The position numbers and the translations under genes were made by a program. 46,842 nt of DNA from Aquificaceae bacterium (GTDB lineage: Bacteria > Aquificota > Aquificia > Aquificales > Aquificaceae): positions 1 to 46,842 of the forward strand of contig JANXBA010000018.1 of assembly GCA_025062075.1 (NCBI GenBank), read 5' to 3'. The notes beneath the pieces were generated by a model. That model was not told the origin of the DNA and ran no database searches. It worked only from the letters and a program-made list of their open reading frames with translations. Position 1 is the first letter of the stretch. Every line of letters starts with the position of its first letter. Positions 18,707 to 25,289 of the stretch are shown in pieces.

Positions 18707-18898
18707 TCATTCCTGCACATACCAAACACGCACACCCACAGAGACATGACTGTTTCTCTCCCACAGCGTCTCCACGCTTACTATGCGAGGCCTGTTTAGT
18801 TTAATCCACTCGTTGACCTGCTCCTGCAGGAGCTGTTCTAAGCTCTCGTCCTTGAAGGGCGTGAGCTTGCGGTGAAAGTCCTTAAAGCGGAGCTCCAT
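18707..18898 (-). CDS. Small conserved-looking protein translationally coupled to grpE
   Basis: A 63-residue protein, not firmly recognised. It starts with a basic amphipathic stretch (MELRFKDFHRKLTPF), then LEQLLQEQVNEWIKLNRPRI, then a beta-hairpin-like end, SVETLWERNSHVSVGVRVWY. The order (a helix with N-E-W, then alternating hydrophobic beta strands ending in Y) resembles the Cse60/DUF2758-type short proteins, which also have no clear function; this is a pattern resemblance only. The ATG overlaps the grpE stop (TGATG), so it should be made together with GrpE. Confidence 0.6.
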   Translation of the reverse strand: MELRFKDFHRKLTPFKDESLEQLLQEQVNEWIKLNRPRIVSVETLWERNSHVSVGVRVWYVQE

Positions 18899-19428
18899 CA
18901 GCTTATCTCTTCCTCCGCGTAGGAGACCACCACGCGGGCAGGCCTCAGCACCCTCTCGTGCAAGAAGTAGCCTTTCCTCTCCACCCTGAGCACCGTGTTA
19001 GGTGGCGTCTTCTCTTCGTACTGTCTGTCTACCGCCTCCGCAAGGTAGGGGTCAAACTCCTTGCCCAAGAGCTCTATCTCTTTCACGCCGTGCTTTTCTA
19101 GAATTCTCAGGAGCTCCCCGTATATAAGCTCAAAACCCCTTTTAAAGGCTTCCAAGTCCTGGCCCTCGTACTCAAAAGCCCTCTCAAAGTTGTCCACCAC
19201 CTCCAAAAGGTCCAGAGCCAACTTTTCGTGTCCGTACTTCTTGACCTCTTCCAAGTCCTTTCTGTAGCGCTCCCGCAGGTACTCAAACTCTCTCTGCAGT
19301 TCCACGTAGCGCTGGTTAACCGCTCTAGCGGTCTGTTCCAGCTTTGAGACCTTCTCCTCCAACTCTTTTATTCTCTGCTCCGCCTGGTCTAACTCTTGAG
19401 AGGTCTCCTGAGGCTTTTCCTCGGTCAT
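18898..19428 (-). CDS. grpE: Nucleotide exchange factor GrpE
   Basis: The 176-residue cochaperone that releases ADP from DnaK. It starts with an acidic/Gln-rich segment and a long coiled coil (RIKELEEKVSKLEQTARAVN, about residues 18-37 and onward). The conserved core follows: LALDLLEVVDNFERAFEY (about 71-88), and GVKEIELLGKEFDPYLAEAV with the beta-wing VLRVERKGYFLHERVLRPAR (about 145-164). It lies after aspC in the minus-strand run. It has no ribosome site: TATAAT, overlapping the aspC stop codon, ends 8 bases before the ATG. dnaJ and hspR are 10 kb away, so the chaperone genes are dispersed. Confidence 0.95.
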   Translation of the reverse strand: MTEEKPQETSQELDQAEQRIKELEEKVSKLEQTARAVNQRYVELQREFEYLRERYRKDLEEVKKYGHEKLALDLLEVVDNFERAFEYEGQDLEAFKRGFELIYGELLRILEKHGVKEIELLGKEFDPYLAEAVDRQYEEKTPPNTVLRVERKGYFLHERVLRPARVVVSYAEEEIS

Positions 19429-19437
19429 AGGTCTAAA

Positions 19438-20622
19438 TTATACACCTTCAAGCCTCAGGAGTGCCTCCTTTAGCCTTCTTATGCCTTCTCTTATAGCGTC
19501 CTCTGGCAGACAGTAGGAGAGTCTTACGTATCCCTGAGCGCCGAAGGCAGAGCCCGGCACGACCGCCACCTTGCCCTGCTCTATGAGGTAGTCCGCCAGC
19601 TTGAGGTCAGACCCCAGCCTGTCCGAGTAGTGGCGCAGGTTGGGGAAGATGTAAAAGGCTCCCTTCGGCTTTACCACGCTTAGGTGGGGCACCTCTCTGA
19701 GAAGGCCGTAGGCTACTTCTCTACGCTCTTGAAAGGCTTTTCTCATGCTCTCTACAAACTCCTTGGAGAGAGGGTTTTTCAGGGCTTCCAGCGCACCGTA
19801 CTGGGCAAAGGTGGTGGCGTTGGAGATGCTCTGGCTGTTGAGGTCTGCCAGCACCTTGGCGTACCTCTGCGGGCACGCCACGTAGCCCACCCTCCAACCG
19901 GTCATGGAGTAGCTCTTGGAGAAGGCGTTCACCGTAAAGGTTATCTCTCGCACTTCCTTGGAGAAGCTGGCGGGGCTAACAAAAGTCTCGCCGTCGTAGA
20001 GGAAAGCCTCGTAGCACTCGTCGGACACCAAAAGAATGTTCCTTTCCACGCAGAGCTCTGCTATCTTTCTCTGCTCTTCTTCTGGCACCACCGCACCCGT
20101 AGGGTTGGAGGGGGAGTTAAGAATGAGCATTTTAGTCCGGGGCGTTATGTAACTTTTTAGGCTCTCCGCCCGCAGGAGGAAGCCTTCCTCTTCCTTTAGA
20201 GGCACTTCCACCACCTTGGCACCGCACAGGAGTATCTGCTCGGGGTAGGTAACCCAGTAGGGGGAGGGAAGTAGCACCTCGTCCCCCTCCTGAAGGGTAG
20301 CCATCATCACCAGAAATAGAGCCATCTTGGCACCGGCGGTCACCACTATCTCGGAGGGGCTGTACTCAACGTGGTTTTCTCTGAGGAGCTTCTCCGAGAT
20401 GGCTTCTCTAAGGGGAAGTATGCCTGCGGAGGGGGCGTACTTGGTCTTGCCCTCTTTGAGGGCTCTGATGCAGGCCTCCTTTATAAAGTTTGGCGTGTCA
20501 AAGTCCGGCTCGCCAGCCCCAAAGCCTATGATGTCCTCTCCTCTTGCTTTCAGCTGGTTTACCTTGGCGGTGAGGGCTAAGGTGGGTGCGGGCTTTATGT
20601 GAGATACTCTGTCCGCAAGCAT
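19438..20622 (-). CDS. aspC: Aspartate aminotransferase, class I (subgroup Ib-like)
   Basis: A 394-residue PLP enzyme moving an amino group between aspartate and 2-oxoglutarate, linking oxaloacetate from the reductive TCA cycle to amino acids. The N-terminus LADRVSHIKPAPTLALTAKV and GFGAGEPDFDTPNFIKEA are typical of the thermophile Ib group. Further motifs are NSPSNPTGAVVP (about 169-180), the cofactor-binding DECYEAF (201-207) and the Schiff-base lysine Lys236 in NAFSKSYSMTGWRVGY. Substrate specificity within the group (aspartate, prephenate or others) cannot be read from sequence alone. TATAAT, overlapping the surE stop, lies 8 bases before the ATG, with no Shine-Dalgarno site. Confidence 0.9.
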   Translation of the reverse strand: MLADRVSHIKPAPTLALTAKVNQLKARGEDIIGFGAGEPDFDTPNFIKEACIRALKEGKTKYAPSAGILPLREAISEKLLRENHVEYSPSEIVVTAGAKMALFLVMMATLQEGDEVLLPSPYWVTYPEQILLCGAKVVEVPLKEEEGFLLRAESLKSYITPRTKMLILNSPSNPTGAVVPEEEQRKIAELCVERNILLVSDECYEAFLYDGETFVSPASFSKEVREITFTVNAFSKSYSMTGWRVGYVACPQRYAKVLADLNSQSISNATTFAQYGALEALKNPLSKEFVESMRKAFQERREVAYGLLREVPHLSVVKPKGAFYIFPNLRHYSDRLGSDLKLADYLIEQGKVAVVPGSAFGAQGYVRLSYCLPEDAIREGIRRLKEALLRLEGV

Positions 20623-20631
20623 GGGGGTGTA

Positions 20632-21381
20632 TTATAGTAGAAGGTCTTTGAGGTCCTTGAGAGCTCTGTGGTTGGTAAGGTCAAGCTGTAGAGGGGTAAC
20701 CGACACGTAGCCGTGGTGGACCGCCCAGTAGTCCGTGTCCTCTTCCAAGTGCCAGTCGAACTCCTCCGCGGTTATCCAGTAAACAGGTCTGCCCGACGGG
20801 TCATTGAGCTGGAGCACCTTCTCCCTGTAGGCCCTTCTGCCCTGTCTGGTAAGCAGAAAGCCCTTTATCTGTTCTCTCTTTAGGTTAGGAATGTTCACGT
20901 TGAGGTAGGTGTCCTCTGGCATGCCCTTCTGGAGGACCTTGTGCACCAGCTCTACGGCGATTTTTGCCAGCTCCTTGAAGTCTATGTCCTCCCTGCCGAA
21001 GGCGGAGAAGGCAACAGAGGGGATGCCCAAAATCCTGCCCTCCATCGCACCGGAGACGGTGCCCGAGTAGGTAATGTCTTCTCCCAAGTTAGGTCCTTCG
21101 TTGATGCCAGAGCAGAGCAGGTCCGGCCTCTTGCCCTCCAAAAACAGGTAATACCCAAAGTGGACGCAGTCCGCGGGCGTGCCTCCAATCACCGTCCAGA
21201 AGTCCTCCTCTATCTTCCTTATGCGCAGGGGCTGGGTAAAGGTAAGGGAGTGGCCTACACCGCTGAGGTTCCTGTCTGGCGCTACTGTGATAACCCTGCC
21301 TATTTTTCTGAGCTCTTCCCTGAGTGCCCTTATGCCTTCGGAGAAGTAGCCGTCGTCGTTGGTAAGCAAAAAGGTAGGCAT
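20632..21381 (-). CDS. surE: 5'/3'-nucleotidase SurE
   Basis: A 249-residue metal-dependent nucleotidase that dephosphorylates nucleoside monophosphates and helps stationary-phase survival in E. coli. The Asp-Asp metal site is in FLLTNDDGYFSEGIRAL (residues 4-20). The other landmarks are VAPDRNLSGVGHSLT (about 35-49) with the Ser ligand, VIGGTPADCVHFG, and LCSGINEGPNLGEDITYSGT (about 90-109) with the conserved Asn. The length is normal. Its ATG is only 17 bp from that of the divergent dnaC-like gene and has TAAAAT 7 bases upstream in place of a ribosome site. It heads the surE-aspC-grpE run. Confidence 0.95.
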   Translation of the reverse strand: MPTFLLTNDDGYFSEGIRALREELRKIGRVITVAPDRNLSGVGHSLTFTQPLRIRKIEEDFWTVIGGTPADCVHFGYYLFLEGKRPDLLCSGINEGPNLGEDITYSGTVSGAMEGRILGIPSVAFSAFGREDIDFKELAKIAVELVHKVLQKGMPEDTYLNVNIPNLKREQIKGFLLTRQGRRAYREKVLQLNDPSGRPVYWITAEEFDWHLEEDTDYWAVHHGYVSVTPLQLDLTNHRALKDLKDLLL

Positions 21382-21398
21382 TACGTATATTTTAACCT
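21382..21398. promoter_or_regulatory. 17-bp bidirectional promoter spacer, surE / dnaC-like
   Basis: The two divergent start codons leave only 17 bp, TACGTATATTTTAACCT on the plus strand. It holds TATATT (21386-21391, plus, gap 7 to ATG 21399) and TAAAAT on the minus strand (21394-21389, gap 7 to ATG 21381). Neither gene can have a normal leader. Any -35 must lie inside the opposite coding sequence. Confidence 0.6.
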
Positions 21399-22052
21399 AT
21401 GGCGTGTCCCAAGTGCGGAGGAAGCGGTTTCATAGACAAGGGTGGGGTGATGGAGCTGTGCTCCTGCAGGTTTGAGGGGGTCAACCTCCAAAAGCACCTG
21501 AACATACCTCCGCGCTTTTTGTATGCGGAGTTTTCCAACTACACGCCCGTATCTCTTTCCCAGAGGAGAGCCTTAGAGGCCTGCCTGCACTTTGTCTACA
21601 GCTTTGACCCGGAGCAGGGCAAAGGGCTTACCCTGCTTGGCCCTCCCCAGATGGGGAAGACCCACTTGGCGGTGGCGGTGCTCAAGGAGATATACCGCAA
21701 ACGGAGAATAAGGGGCTTTTTCTTTGACACCAAGGACCTCTTCTACAGGCTTCAGGTCTATACCAACTCCGAGAAGTACTACCGGCTTATGGAGTTTTTG
21801 CTGAACGTGCCCCTGCTGGTGCTGGACGACCTGGGTAGCGAAAGGCTCTCCGACTGGAGGATAGAGACTCTCTCCCACATAATCAGCCACAGGTACAACT
21901 TCCTCAAGAGCACGATTATAACCACCAACTACAACCTACTGAAGGAGGAAGAGAAAGAGGTAGCAAGAGCCTTAGAAGAGCGTCTCTCCCCTGCGGTGGT
22001 AGGCAAGATATACCAGACGAACGAAGTTCTGCACATGACGGAGCAGGGCTAA
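21399..22052 (+). CDS. DnaC/DnaI-like AAA+ ATPase (helicase-loader type)
   Basis: A 217-residue ATPase resembling bacterial helicase loaders. It has an N-terminal zinc-binding element (CPKCGGSGF...CSC, residues 3-26) as in DnaI, then a AAA+ domain with Walker A LLGPPQMGKTHLA (about 77-89), Walker B PLLVLDDLGSE (about 136-146), sensor-type TIITTNYN (about 170-177) and an arginine-finger-like RLSPAVVGKI. It probably helps load DnaB at replication forks; a primosome or transposon-type IstB function is less likely because no transposase is nearby. It is initiated 17 bp from surE with TATATT 7 bases before the ATG. Confidence 0.85.
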   Translation: MACPKCGGSGFIDKGGVMELCSCRFEGVNLQKHLNIPPRFLYAEFSNYTPVSLSQRRALEACLHFVYSFDPEQGKGLTLLGPPQMGKTHLAVAVLKEIYRKRRIRGFFFDTKDLFYRLQVYTNSEKYYRLMEFLLNVPLLVLDDLGSERLSDWRIETLSHIISHRYNFLKSTIITTNYNLLKEEEKEVARALEERLSPAVVGKIYQTNEVLHMTEQG

Positions 22053-22702: not shown

Positions 22703-23904
22703 CAGCCAGTGGCATTCTGCTGGGCCTGTGAGAAAATGTTTTGCAACACGCCGTAGAAGAACTCCGCCCTGTCCCGAGGCCCAAAGTTCTGCAGCACCCT
22801 CTCCCTGGCCTTTCTGCCTATCTCCCGGGCCTGCTCTAAGTTTTCAAGGTAGTAAAGTAGCTTTTCCTCTATGTCTGCCCTGTCCAAGGGGAGGTAGTCT
22901 ATCACCTCACTGCCGACGGAGAAAAAGCCCGGTAGAGTGGCGCGCAGGTCAATCAATGGTGCACTCTCCATGTAAGCCACCTCCAAGGGCACAAAGCCTA
23001 TGCCTGTAGGCACTGCGTGAGGAAAGCTCATCAAGGTCATGTAGGACCTTCCCAAGACCTGCAGAGCCTCCTCCCAGCTCTGCACGTTTACGTGCTCGTG
23101 TCCCTGTTTGAGAACTCCTTCAAAAAGGCCCACTATCTTCAGACTTATGCCTTCCAAAAAGCTGAGAATGTACCACCTTTTCTTCGCAGTGGCGTAAAAA
23201 CTGATGTCGTTGAGCAGTCTGTAGTAGCCCTGCGGGTTTTCCTGCTTCCACTTGGTAAACTCTTCCTGAAAGCTCTGGTTGAACATGGACAGGATGTAGT
23301 CGCCGGCGTGCAGGAGGTGCACCTCTGGGTTGCGAAAGAGAAACTCCGCCACTTCGAAAAAGTAGGCCACAAAGTCCTCCTTGAGGTTGCCTACCACCTG
23401 ACGGGCTACGATGTCGGGGTCTACCACAGGCCCTAAGAAGACCAGCTCTATGTCCTTGTCCTCCGAAGGCTGAGGCATCTGGGCAGGGTCCAAGAAAGGA
23501 GTTATGTAAAAGGTGCCTCTTTCGTGTCCAAGGAACTTCAAGCTCTCCGCATACTTGAGGTCCGTGACCACGGGCAAGAAGTTGTTGACCTGCCTCAGGT
23601 CCAGGAGCGTGGGGAAGTGAAACAGGGGCTCTTCAGTGAAAAGGCTCACATGAACGAACCCAAAAGCGTCTGGCAGGAACAGCCTCTCGCCCTCCCTCTC
23701 TCCGAAGAGAATGCAGGAACCGTTTATGTCCAGGGCAAAGGTGGGAGAGAAGGCAAGAAGCCTGTTGACTACCTCTTGGAGCTCTCCCTCGGAGAGGTCA
23801 AACTCCTCTACCTCCGCACCTTTTTCCCTGAGAAGACTCTTGAAAGCAAAAATGTGCCTGTTTATACCCAGGTCTTTTACCTGCTTTAGAAGGGCTATTC
23901 TCAT
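22702..23904 (-). CDS. Glycosyltransferase-like protein (GT-B/CgeB-like), uncertain
   Basis: A 400-residue soluble protein. The N-terminal third is Rossmann-like (MRIALLKQVKDLGINRHIFA; LLAFSPTFALDINGS; FGFVHVSLFTEEPLFHF). The C-terminal third has the form of a GT-B nucleotide-sugar domain: EEALQVLGRSYMTLMSFPHA, FVPLEVAYMESAPLIDLRA and a C-terminal helix IGRKARERVLQNFGPRDRAE. This layout recalls CgeB-type and related glycosyltransferases, but I see no decisive catalytic motif. An aromatic-rich middle part (ISFYATAKKRWYILSFLEGI) is unusual. TATGAT lies 9 bases before the ATG, without a ribosome site; divergent miaB starts 74 bp away. Confidence 0.5.
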   Translation of the reverse strand: MRIALLKQVKDLGINRHIFAFKSLLREKGAEVEEFDLSEGELQEVVNRLLAFSPTFALDINGSCILFGEREGERLFLPDAFGFVHVSLFTEEPLFHFPTLLDLRQVNNFLPVVTDLKYAESLKFLGHERGTFYITPFLDPAQMPQPSEDKDIELVFLGPVVDPDIVARQVVGNLKEDFVAYFFEVAEFLFRNPEVHLLHAGDYILSMFNQSFQEEFTKWKQENPQGYYRLLNDISFYATAKKRWYILSFLEGISLKIVGLFEGVLKQGHEHVNVQSWEEALQVLGRSYMTLMSFPHAVPTGIGFVPLEVAYMESAPLIDLRATLPGFFSVGSEVIDYLPLDRADIEEKLLYYLENLEQAREIGRKARERVLQNFGPRDRAEFFYGVLQNIFSQAQQNATG

Positions 23905-23978
23905 GACTTTAAAATCATACCACAGGGTCGGTGGGTTTGTGGTTTTTTTACGGGCTGTTGTATAAATTTTTTAACACC

Positions 23979-25289
23979 ATGAAGTACTACATAAAGACCT
24001 TTGGCTGTCAGATGAACTTCAACGACTCGGAGCGGATAAGGGGTATTCTGCAGAGCATAGGCTACGAGCCGGCCCAGAGTTGGGAAGAGGCGGACCTTAT
24101 ACTTCTAAACACCTGCACCATAAGGGAGAAGCCAGACCAGAAGGTCTACTCCCATCTTGGAGAGTACAAAAAGCTAAAGGAGAAAAACCCCAGGGCCCTC
24201 ATAGGCGTGTGCGGATGCCTTGCCCAGAGAATGGGACAAGAACTGGTCCAGAAGGCACCCGTAGTAGACCTCATGTTTTCCAGCTACAACATGCACCAGC
24301 TTCCCGAACTCATTCAGCAGGCGCAGGCAGGCTACAAGGCAATAGCCATACTGGAAGAGCCACCGCAGGACGAGGACCAGCTCTGGGAGTATCCCACGGT
24401 TAGGGACAACCAGTTCTGCGCCTACGTGACTGTCATGAAAGGGTGCGACAAAAACTGCACCTACTGCGTGGTGCCAAAGACCAGAGGTCGTCAGCGCTCC
24501 AGAGCACTGCAGAGCGTGCTCAAAGAGGTGAAAGAGCTGGTCGCAGACGGCGTAAGAGAAATACACCTGCTGGGGCAGAACGTGACCGCCTGGGGACAGG
24601 ACATAGGCCTGCCCTTTGAAGAGCTCCTGTATCGTGTGGCCGAAGTGCCAGGCGTGGAAAGGGTGCGTTTCACCACAGGCCATCCCAGAGACCTCACCGA
24701 GTCCATAGCCAAGGCCATGGGCGAGATACCGCAGGTCTGCCCGCACATCCACCTGCCCGTGCAGGCAGGCTCCAACCGCATCCTAACCCTCATGGACAGA
24801 GGCTACACCAGAGAGGAGTATCTGGAGAAGATAGACATGCTCAGATACTACGTAAAAGGAATAAGCTTTTCTACGGACGTAATCGTGGGCTTTCCTACGG
24901 AGACGGAGGAGGACTTTGAGGACACTCTTGAGGTGCTCAGAAGAGTCAGGTTTGAACAGGTCTTCTCCTTCAAGTACTCCCCAAGACCTGACACGCCTGC
25001 CTACTCCATGCAGGGGCAGGTGCCCGACGAGGTAAAGACTAGCAGGATGGCCAAACTTTTGGAGCTCCAGAAGGGCATACTGGCGGAGATAGCCCTGTCT
25101 TACCAAAACACAGAGCAGGAGGTGCTGGTGGAGAGCTCTGAGGGGGGCAAGCTGGTGGGAAGAACCCGAGGAAACCGCTGGGCGAGCTTTCCCGGCGAGG
25201 AGCACCTTTTGGGCAAGCTGGTAAAGGTCAGGGTGGTAAAGTCTAGGCCCTTCAACATGGAGTGCGAACTCCTGCAGGTTTTAGGCTAA
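23979..25289 (+). CDS. miaB: tRNA-2-methylthio-N6-dimethylallyladenosine synthase MiaB
   Basis: A radical SAM methylthiotransferase that adds a methylthio group to i6A37 of tRNAs reading U-codons. The N-terminal cluster cysteines are in FGCQMNFNDSER, LNTCTIREKPDQ and GVCGCLAQRMG. The radical SAM cluster is GCDKNCTYCVVPKTRGRQRS (about residues 155-174), followed by LLGQNVTAWG and the C-terminal TRAM-like domain. This is the MiaB rather than RimO pattern. The start at 23979 fits the family N-terminus (MKYYIKTFGCQMN). The earlier ATG at 23931 adds unrelated residues. TATAAA (23961-23966) and TTGTGG 18 bases upstream suggest a promoter directly before the start, with no Shine-Dalgarno site. Confidence 0.95.
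   Translation: MKYYIKTFGCQMNFNDSERIRGILQSIGYEPAQSWEEADLILLNTCTIREKPDQKVYSHLGEYKKLKEKNPRALIGVCGCLAQRMGQELVQKAPVVDLMFSSYNMHQLPELIQQAQAGYKAIAILEEPPQDEDQLWEYPTVRDNQFCAYVTVMKGCDKNCTYCVVPKTRGRQRSRALQSVLKEVKELVADGVREIHLLGQNVTAWGQDIGLPFEELLYRVAEVPGVERVRFTTGHPRDLTESIAKAMGEIPQVCPHIHLPVQAGSNRILTLMDRGYTREEYLEKIDMLRYYVKGISFSTDVIVGFPTETEEDFEDTLEVLRRVRFEQVFSFKYSPRPDTPAYSMQGQVPDEVKTSRMAKLLELQKGILAEIALSYQNTEQEVLVESSEGGKLVGRTRGNRWASFPGEEHLLGKLVKVRVVKSRPFNMECELLQVLG

Follow-up and report, generated by a model that had tools for sequence, protein, structure and literature searches.

The start codons of surE and of a dnaC-like helicase loader gene diverge across only 17 bp in the 46,842-nucleotide stretch of an Aquificaceae contig that we analysed (JANXBA010000018.1, positions 1 to 46,842; hereafter the window), and the gap is most probably a compact bidirectional housekeeping promoter, whose sequence points to overlapping -10 boxes and two leaderless or nearly leaderless mRNAs. 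The surE gene starts at 21381 on the minus strand (start codon 21379-21381, CAT on the plus strand) and the dnaC-like gene at 21399 on the plus strand (ATG, 21399-21401), leaving TACGTATATTTTAACCT (21382..21398) as the whole intergenic region. Direct reading of the letters showed the spacing and coordinates in a first-pass annotation of this DNA to be exact. It also confirmed the two boxes named there: TATATT (21386..21391, plus strand) faces the dnaC-like gene and TAAAAT (21394-21389, minus strand) faces surE, each 7 bp from its ATG, a distance that is 7-9 bp for dnaC and 7-8 bp for surE in relatives.

Both genes are well identified at their N-termini. SurE (20632..21381, minus strand) is a 5'/3'-nucleotidase of 249 aa that matches PF01975 (E=6.5e-62) and the solved SurE 2WQK (E=4e-125), scores over the cut-offs of NF001490 and TIGR00087 and is a full-length family member; it begins MPTFLLTNDD, and its alignment with 2WQK starts at residue 1. 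The 217-aa product of the divergent gene (21399..22052, plus strand) is a DnaC-like AAA+ protein, over the cut-off for PF01695 and under those of the NCBIfam DnaC models, and its nearest solved structures are PDB 3EC2/3ECC, 'DNA replication protein DnaC' (E about 1e-55). Its N-terminal M-x-C-x-x-C is conserved. The ATG of each gene stands at the same place in every paired genome and the N-termini are conserved, which rules out wrong start codons; start codons well inside the genes, which the annotation had named as a case against its own proposal, are thus not borne out. The N-terminal cysteine cluster of the DnaC-like protein (CPKCGGSGF...CSC, encoded at 21399-21480) is conserved in the family and lies outside the part that matches solved DnaC structures, a match that begins at residue 39. 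Downstream of surE is a gene for an aspartate-type aminotransferase (19438..20622, minus strand) with its own TATAAT 8 bp before the ATG (20631-20636, minus strand), and the next gene on that side, grpE (18898..19428, minus strand), likewise has a TATAAT, also at about 8 bp from the ATG.

In protein searches, the window's genus (g1) proved to have the divergent surE/dnaC pair in each of its 14 genomes, and genus g4 in four out of five, the fifth having no matches to either gene; genome G029 carries the pair at 724.1 kb. The gap is 17-19 bp in every one of these 18 paired Aquificaceae genomes, with the first bases of the start codons 18 bp apart here and 18-20 bp apart in relatives, so that the alignment check proposed in the annotation came out in favour of a kept spacing. 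Within the gap, the nine columns of the core TATATTTTA (21386..21394) are invariant in the 18-genome alignment, while all other intergenic columns vary. Silent sites are near saturation among these genomes, and none of 15 fourfold-degenerate sites nearby is invariant. This difference (9/9 versus 0/15) rules out a chance arrangement, the 18 genomes being counted as related members of two genera and not as 18 independent trials. The annotation's AT element, common to both genes and offering a -10 box in each direction, is thereby supported: the core is the same in 18 of 18. The pairing is lost outside the two genera; in Aquifex-like genomes the two genes are not neighbours. One sequence titled 'Acidobacteria bacterium isolate J001' (RFFP01000004.1) carries the Aquificaceae surE/dnaC junction, and its title looks misnamed.

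The two boxes overlap by 3 bp on opposite strands. An alternative register of the dnaC box, TATTTT (21388-21393, plus strand), overlaps TAAAAT by 5 bp as TATTTTA, a perfectly symmetric element of the TANNNTA type; the box used for dnaC may be this one, and the dnaC register is in that respect not fully fixed. A sample of 32 genomes in which dnaC does not adjoin surE separates the contributions of the two genes. TAAAAT lies within 25 bp of the surE ATG in 14 of them, none of which has the core as read on the surE strand, TAAAATATA, found in 18/18 paired surE genes. The TA at 21386-21387 that completes TATATT hence goes with the dnaC neighbour. Judged from these alignments, the core is under constraint from both genes, as two separately constrained boxes that overlap. 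Where dnaC has other neighbours in the family, a different AT-rich -10-like box stands right before its ATG.

The position of both boxes agrees with a wider signal. TANNNT is enriched 2.3-3.7x over background at -15..-12 of gene starts in five Aquificaceae genera (starts called without the use of upstream motifs), with a genome-wide peak at -14..-12, and its first T falls at -13 for both surE and dnaC. The motif is below background in two related families (0.5-0.7x) and in Escherichia coli (0.6x). Zheng et al. 2011 (PMC3160421) describe TA-led genes, in which TANNNT stands about 12 bp ahead of the start codon, and predict 20.7-32.4% leaderless genes for the two Aquificae genomes where such genes were detected, including Aquifex aeolicus; the Aquificaceae peak is in line with these published predictions. 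We would place the transcription start of dnaC at the A of its ATG (21399) or within about 2 nt of it, going by the -10 box and the TANNNT peak, and that of surE likewise at 21381 or no more than about 2 nt away, going by its -10 box. Direct reading of the 18 junctions gave no Shine-Dalgarno sequence at normal spacing for either gene, so leaderless or nearly leaderless mRNAs would be the simplest reading for both. The annotation's claim that both transcripts must be leaderless is to that extent supported, by box spacing and the missing Shine-Dalgarno. An AGG before surE was considered as a Shine-Dalgarno sequence and rejected, as it is 14 bp from the ATG and too distant. Differential RNA-seq of A. 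aeolicus exists (PMC4227106), in a paper whose text has no leaderless analysis, and our search of the open-licence literature found no paper on Aquificaceae transcription starts.

Neither direction would seem to depend on a -35 element. A promoter scan requiring a -35 made no call at the locus, and the 18-genome alignment has no conserved -35 columns on either side of the junction, nor a TTGACA-like -35 at 16-18 bp. Across TANNNT-led genes of the window's genus there is almost no -35 signal, only a faint excess of TTG, which lies upstream of the -10 box by about 16 bp. The annotation had put each -35 inside the other coding sequence, which is correct as geometry and goes no further, no -35 being conserved there. 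The hexamer TTGGGA in the dnaC codons was rejected as a -35, because just 12 bp separate it from the -10 box of surE and Cys-Pro-Lys codons explain it. Counted from the first T of the box, TANNNT-led genes of two genomes (G000 and G036) show a weak enrichment of G at -4 and of T at -3, a preference that differs from the usual TGn extended -10.

The annotation presented the junction as a one-off, but it is one of many such in the family. Stretches sampled from six Aquificaceae genomes (G000, G036, G029, G052, G009 and G001) contain 231 divergent pairs, of which 42 (~18%) have the first bases of their start codons 14-25 bp apart, with a mode of 18 and an AT-rich core, counts in which single entries may be wrong, since starts come from our own gene caller, and in which two g1 genomes share some orthologous pairs. 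Pairs closer than 14 bp are almost absent (three at 2-9 bp and a few overlapping calls). The close pairs of G001 include L209:1019/1035 and L214:12805/12819. The sampled genomes of two related families gave 0/38 pairs in the 14-25 bp range (Fisher p = 0.0013) and 200 kb of E. coli gave 0/26 (pooled controls, p = 2e-5). TANNNT faces both starts in 28 of the 42 close pairs, against 5.5 expected by shuffling. A mirror-image TANNNT also accompanies 54% (184/338) of ordinary, non-divergent TANNNT-led genes and taken alone is weak evidence, because AT-rich -10 boxes are nearly symmetric; given a box on the plus side, however, the opposite box is found in 28/32 close pairs, significantly more often than in the ordinary genes (p = 0.0003).

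Two further members of the class come from the window's own genome. A MazG-like gene and a gene for an unknown membrane protein diverge 17 bp apart across tgaaTATAATATAggcc (L122:10049-10067, contig C8); 11 genomes of the genus keep this arrangement at 17-19 bp, and their core is TATAATATA or a close variant. The genes mreB and leuS beta-subunit are 21 bp apart (L134:5285-5307, contig C20); when conservation was looked for, this pairing proved private to the genome, and leuS-beta, where it has other neighbours, retains AT-rich -10-like sequence close to its start. Such pairs may take more than leaderlessness: the leaderless-rich Thermus pTT27 has a strong TANNNT signal (4.1x) yet 0/28 divergent pairs at 14-25 bp, the closest credible ones being at 27-29 bp, in what is a small sample.

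On the preferred reading, RNA polymerase would bind the shared AT core either way round. Facing dnaC, it would open TATATT and start at or beside the dnaC ATG; facing surE, it would open TAAAAT and start at or beside the surE ATG, so that start codons would coincide with transcription starts and both mRNAs would be leaderless or nearly so. Only a single polymerase should fit at a time, and at basal strength the two directions would be expected to fire nearly independently. We therefore expect two weak, nearly independent promoters rather than a switch, because all five bidirectional promoters tested in E. coli had too little basal activity for the two sides to compete, and interference or repression emerged only under strong activation of one side (PMC12825309). 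The mutually exclusive firing proposed in the annotation is accordingly supported as steric exclusion, which follows from the geometry, and unsupported as competition, for which E. coli basal firing is too low (PMC12825309).

The evidence on the core bears on an alternative in which the element promotes surE only, dnaC being transcribed with a leader from a promoter farther upstream, inside surE. In its favour, the surE box is the older one, as TAAAAT stands before surE in many genomes without dnaC adjoining, and chance gives a near-symmetric -10 box in half of cases. We nevertheless hold this alternative to be improbable: all 18 paired genomes keep the TA that only the dnaC box requires, and all 14 unpaired ones with TAAAAT lack it, dnaC elsewhere in the family also has its AT-rich box just before the ATG, and a leadered dnaC mRNA would be poorly translated from a gene that here has no Shine-Dalgarno sequence.

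A regulatory switch at the surE/dnaC junction is possible but unsupported. In its strict form, polymerase competition would couple surE and dnaC inversely, as an either/or choice between survival and replication. Overlapping boxes do forbid simultaneous occupancy, and interference is documented in E. coli once one direction is activated (PMC12825309), but five of five E. coli bidirectional promoters lack competition at basal activity (PMC12825309), 17 bp have neither room for an activator site nor a conserved trace of one, and beyond two genera the pairing does not persist; we regard such a switch as distinctly improbable. It is scarcely credible that the AT core is a regulator's operator, or the spacing a by-product of genome compaction, with no shared promoter. 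Short conserved AT-rich blocks can be operators and these genomes are small, but many unrelated junctions carry a core of this kind, spaced as -10 boxes should be, and compaction accounts neither for divergent starts almost never being less than 14 bp apart nor for the absence of the class from equally small genomes of two related families.

The bidirectional promoter that we favour has three near counterparts among known systems. Like the E. coli bidirectional promoters of Warman, Grainger and colleagues (PMC12825309), it has overlapping -10 boxes on opposite strands that impose steric exclusion. The commonest distance between divergent transcription starts at those promoters is 18 bp; here the 18 bp lie between start codons, at which transcription starts are predicted, and the starts of a shared-box promoter should be about 10-23 bp apart. 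The E. coli cases are regulator-bound and lie between genes, whereas the surE and dnaC start codons abut the element, with almost no predicted leader and no intergenic regulator sites. The TA-led genes of Zheng et al. 2011 likewise have TANNNT some 12 bp from the start codon, and are single genes in the part of that study available to us (PMC3160421), whereas surE and dnaC would be two leaderless genes back to back on one element. Mycobacterium tuberculosis lysG/lysE also has divergent genes with overlapping promoter boxes, and a leaderless lysE transcript exists; it differs in its 108-bp intergenic region with a LysR-type operator and in the origin of the leaderless transcript, which has a second promoter of its own (PMC5648196). 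In the open-licence literature we found no paper that combines leaderless genes with a bidirectional promoter. Each is known, and their fusion as a common layout appears to be undescribed.

The surE/dnaC junction would join two known phenomena in one minimal unit, a core of ~9 bp whose two boxes each lie 7-9 bp from a start codon. Should transcript mapping bear this out, such junctions would rank with the smallest natural control regions for two genes. They would also be a clean test bed for the choice of direction by polymerase where there are no leaders, no clear -35 and no intergenic regulator sites. We consider it a speculative and rather unlikely extension that one -10 element with two leaderless genes is a selected, family-wide layout, in which the choice of polymerase orientation would set a fixed ratio of the two products with low noise and without a regulator. 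For annotation, a practical rule is that divergent starts 14-25 bp apart in Aquificaceae are to be taken as real, not as errors. The window holds a further close divergent pair, a glycosyltransferase-like gene and miaB, 26 bp apart (23904-23931); the GTG start of miaB is doubtful, since the usual MiaB N-terminus, MKYYIKTFGCQMN, starts at an internal ATG near 23979.
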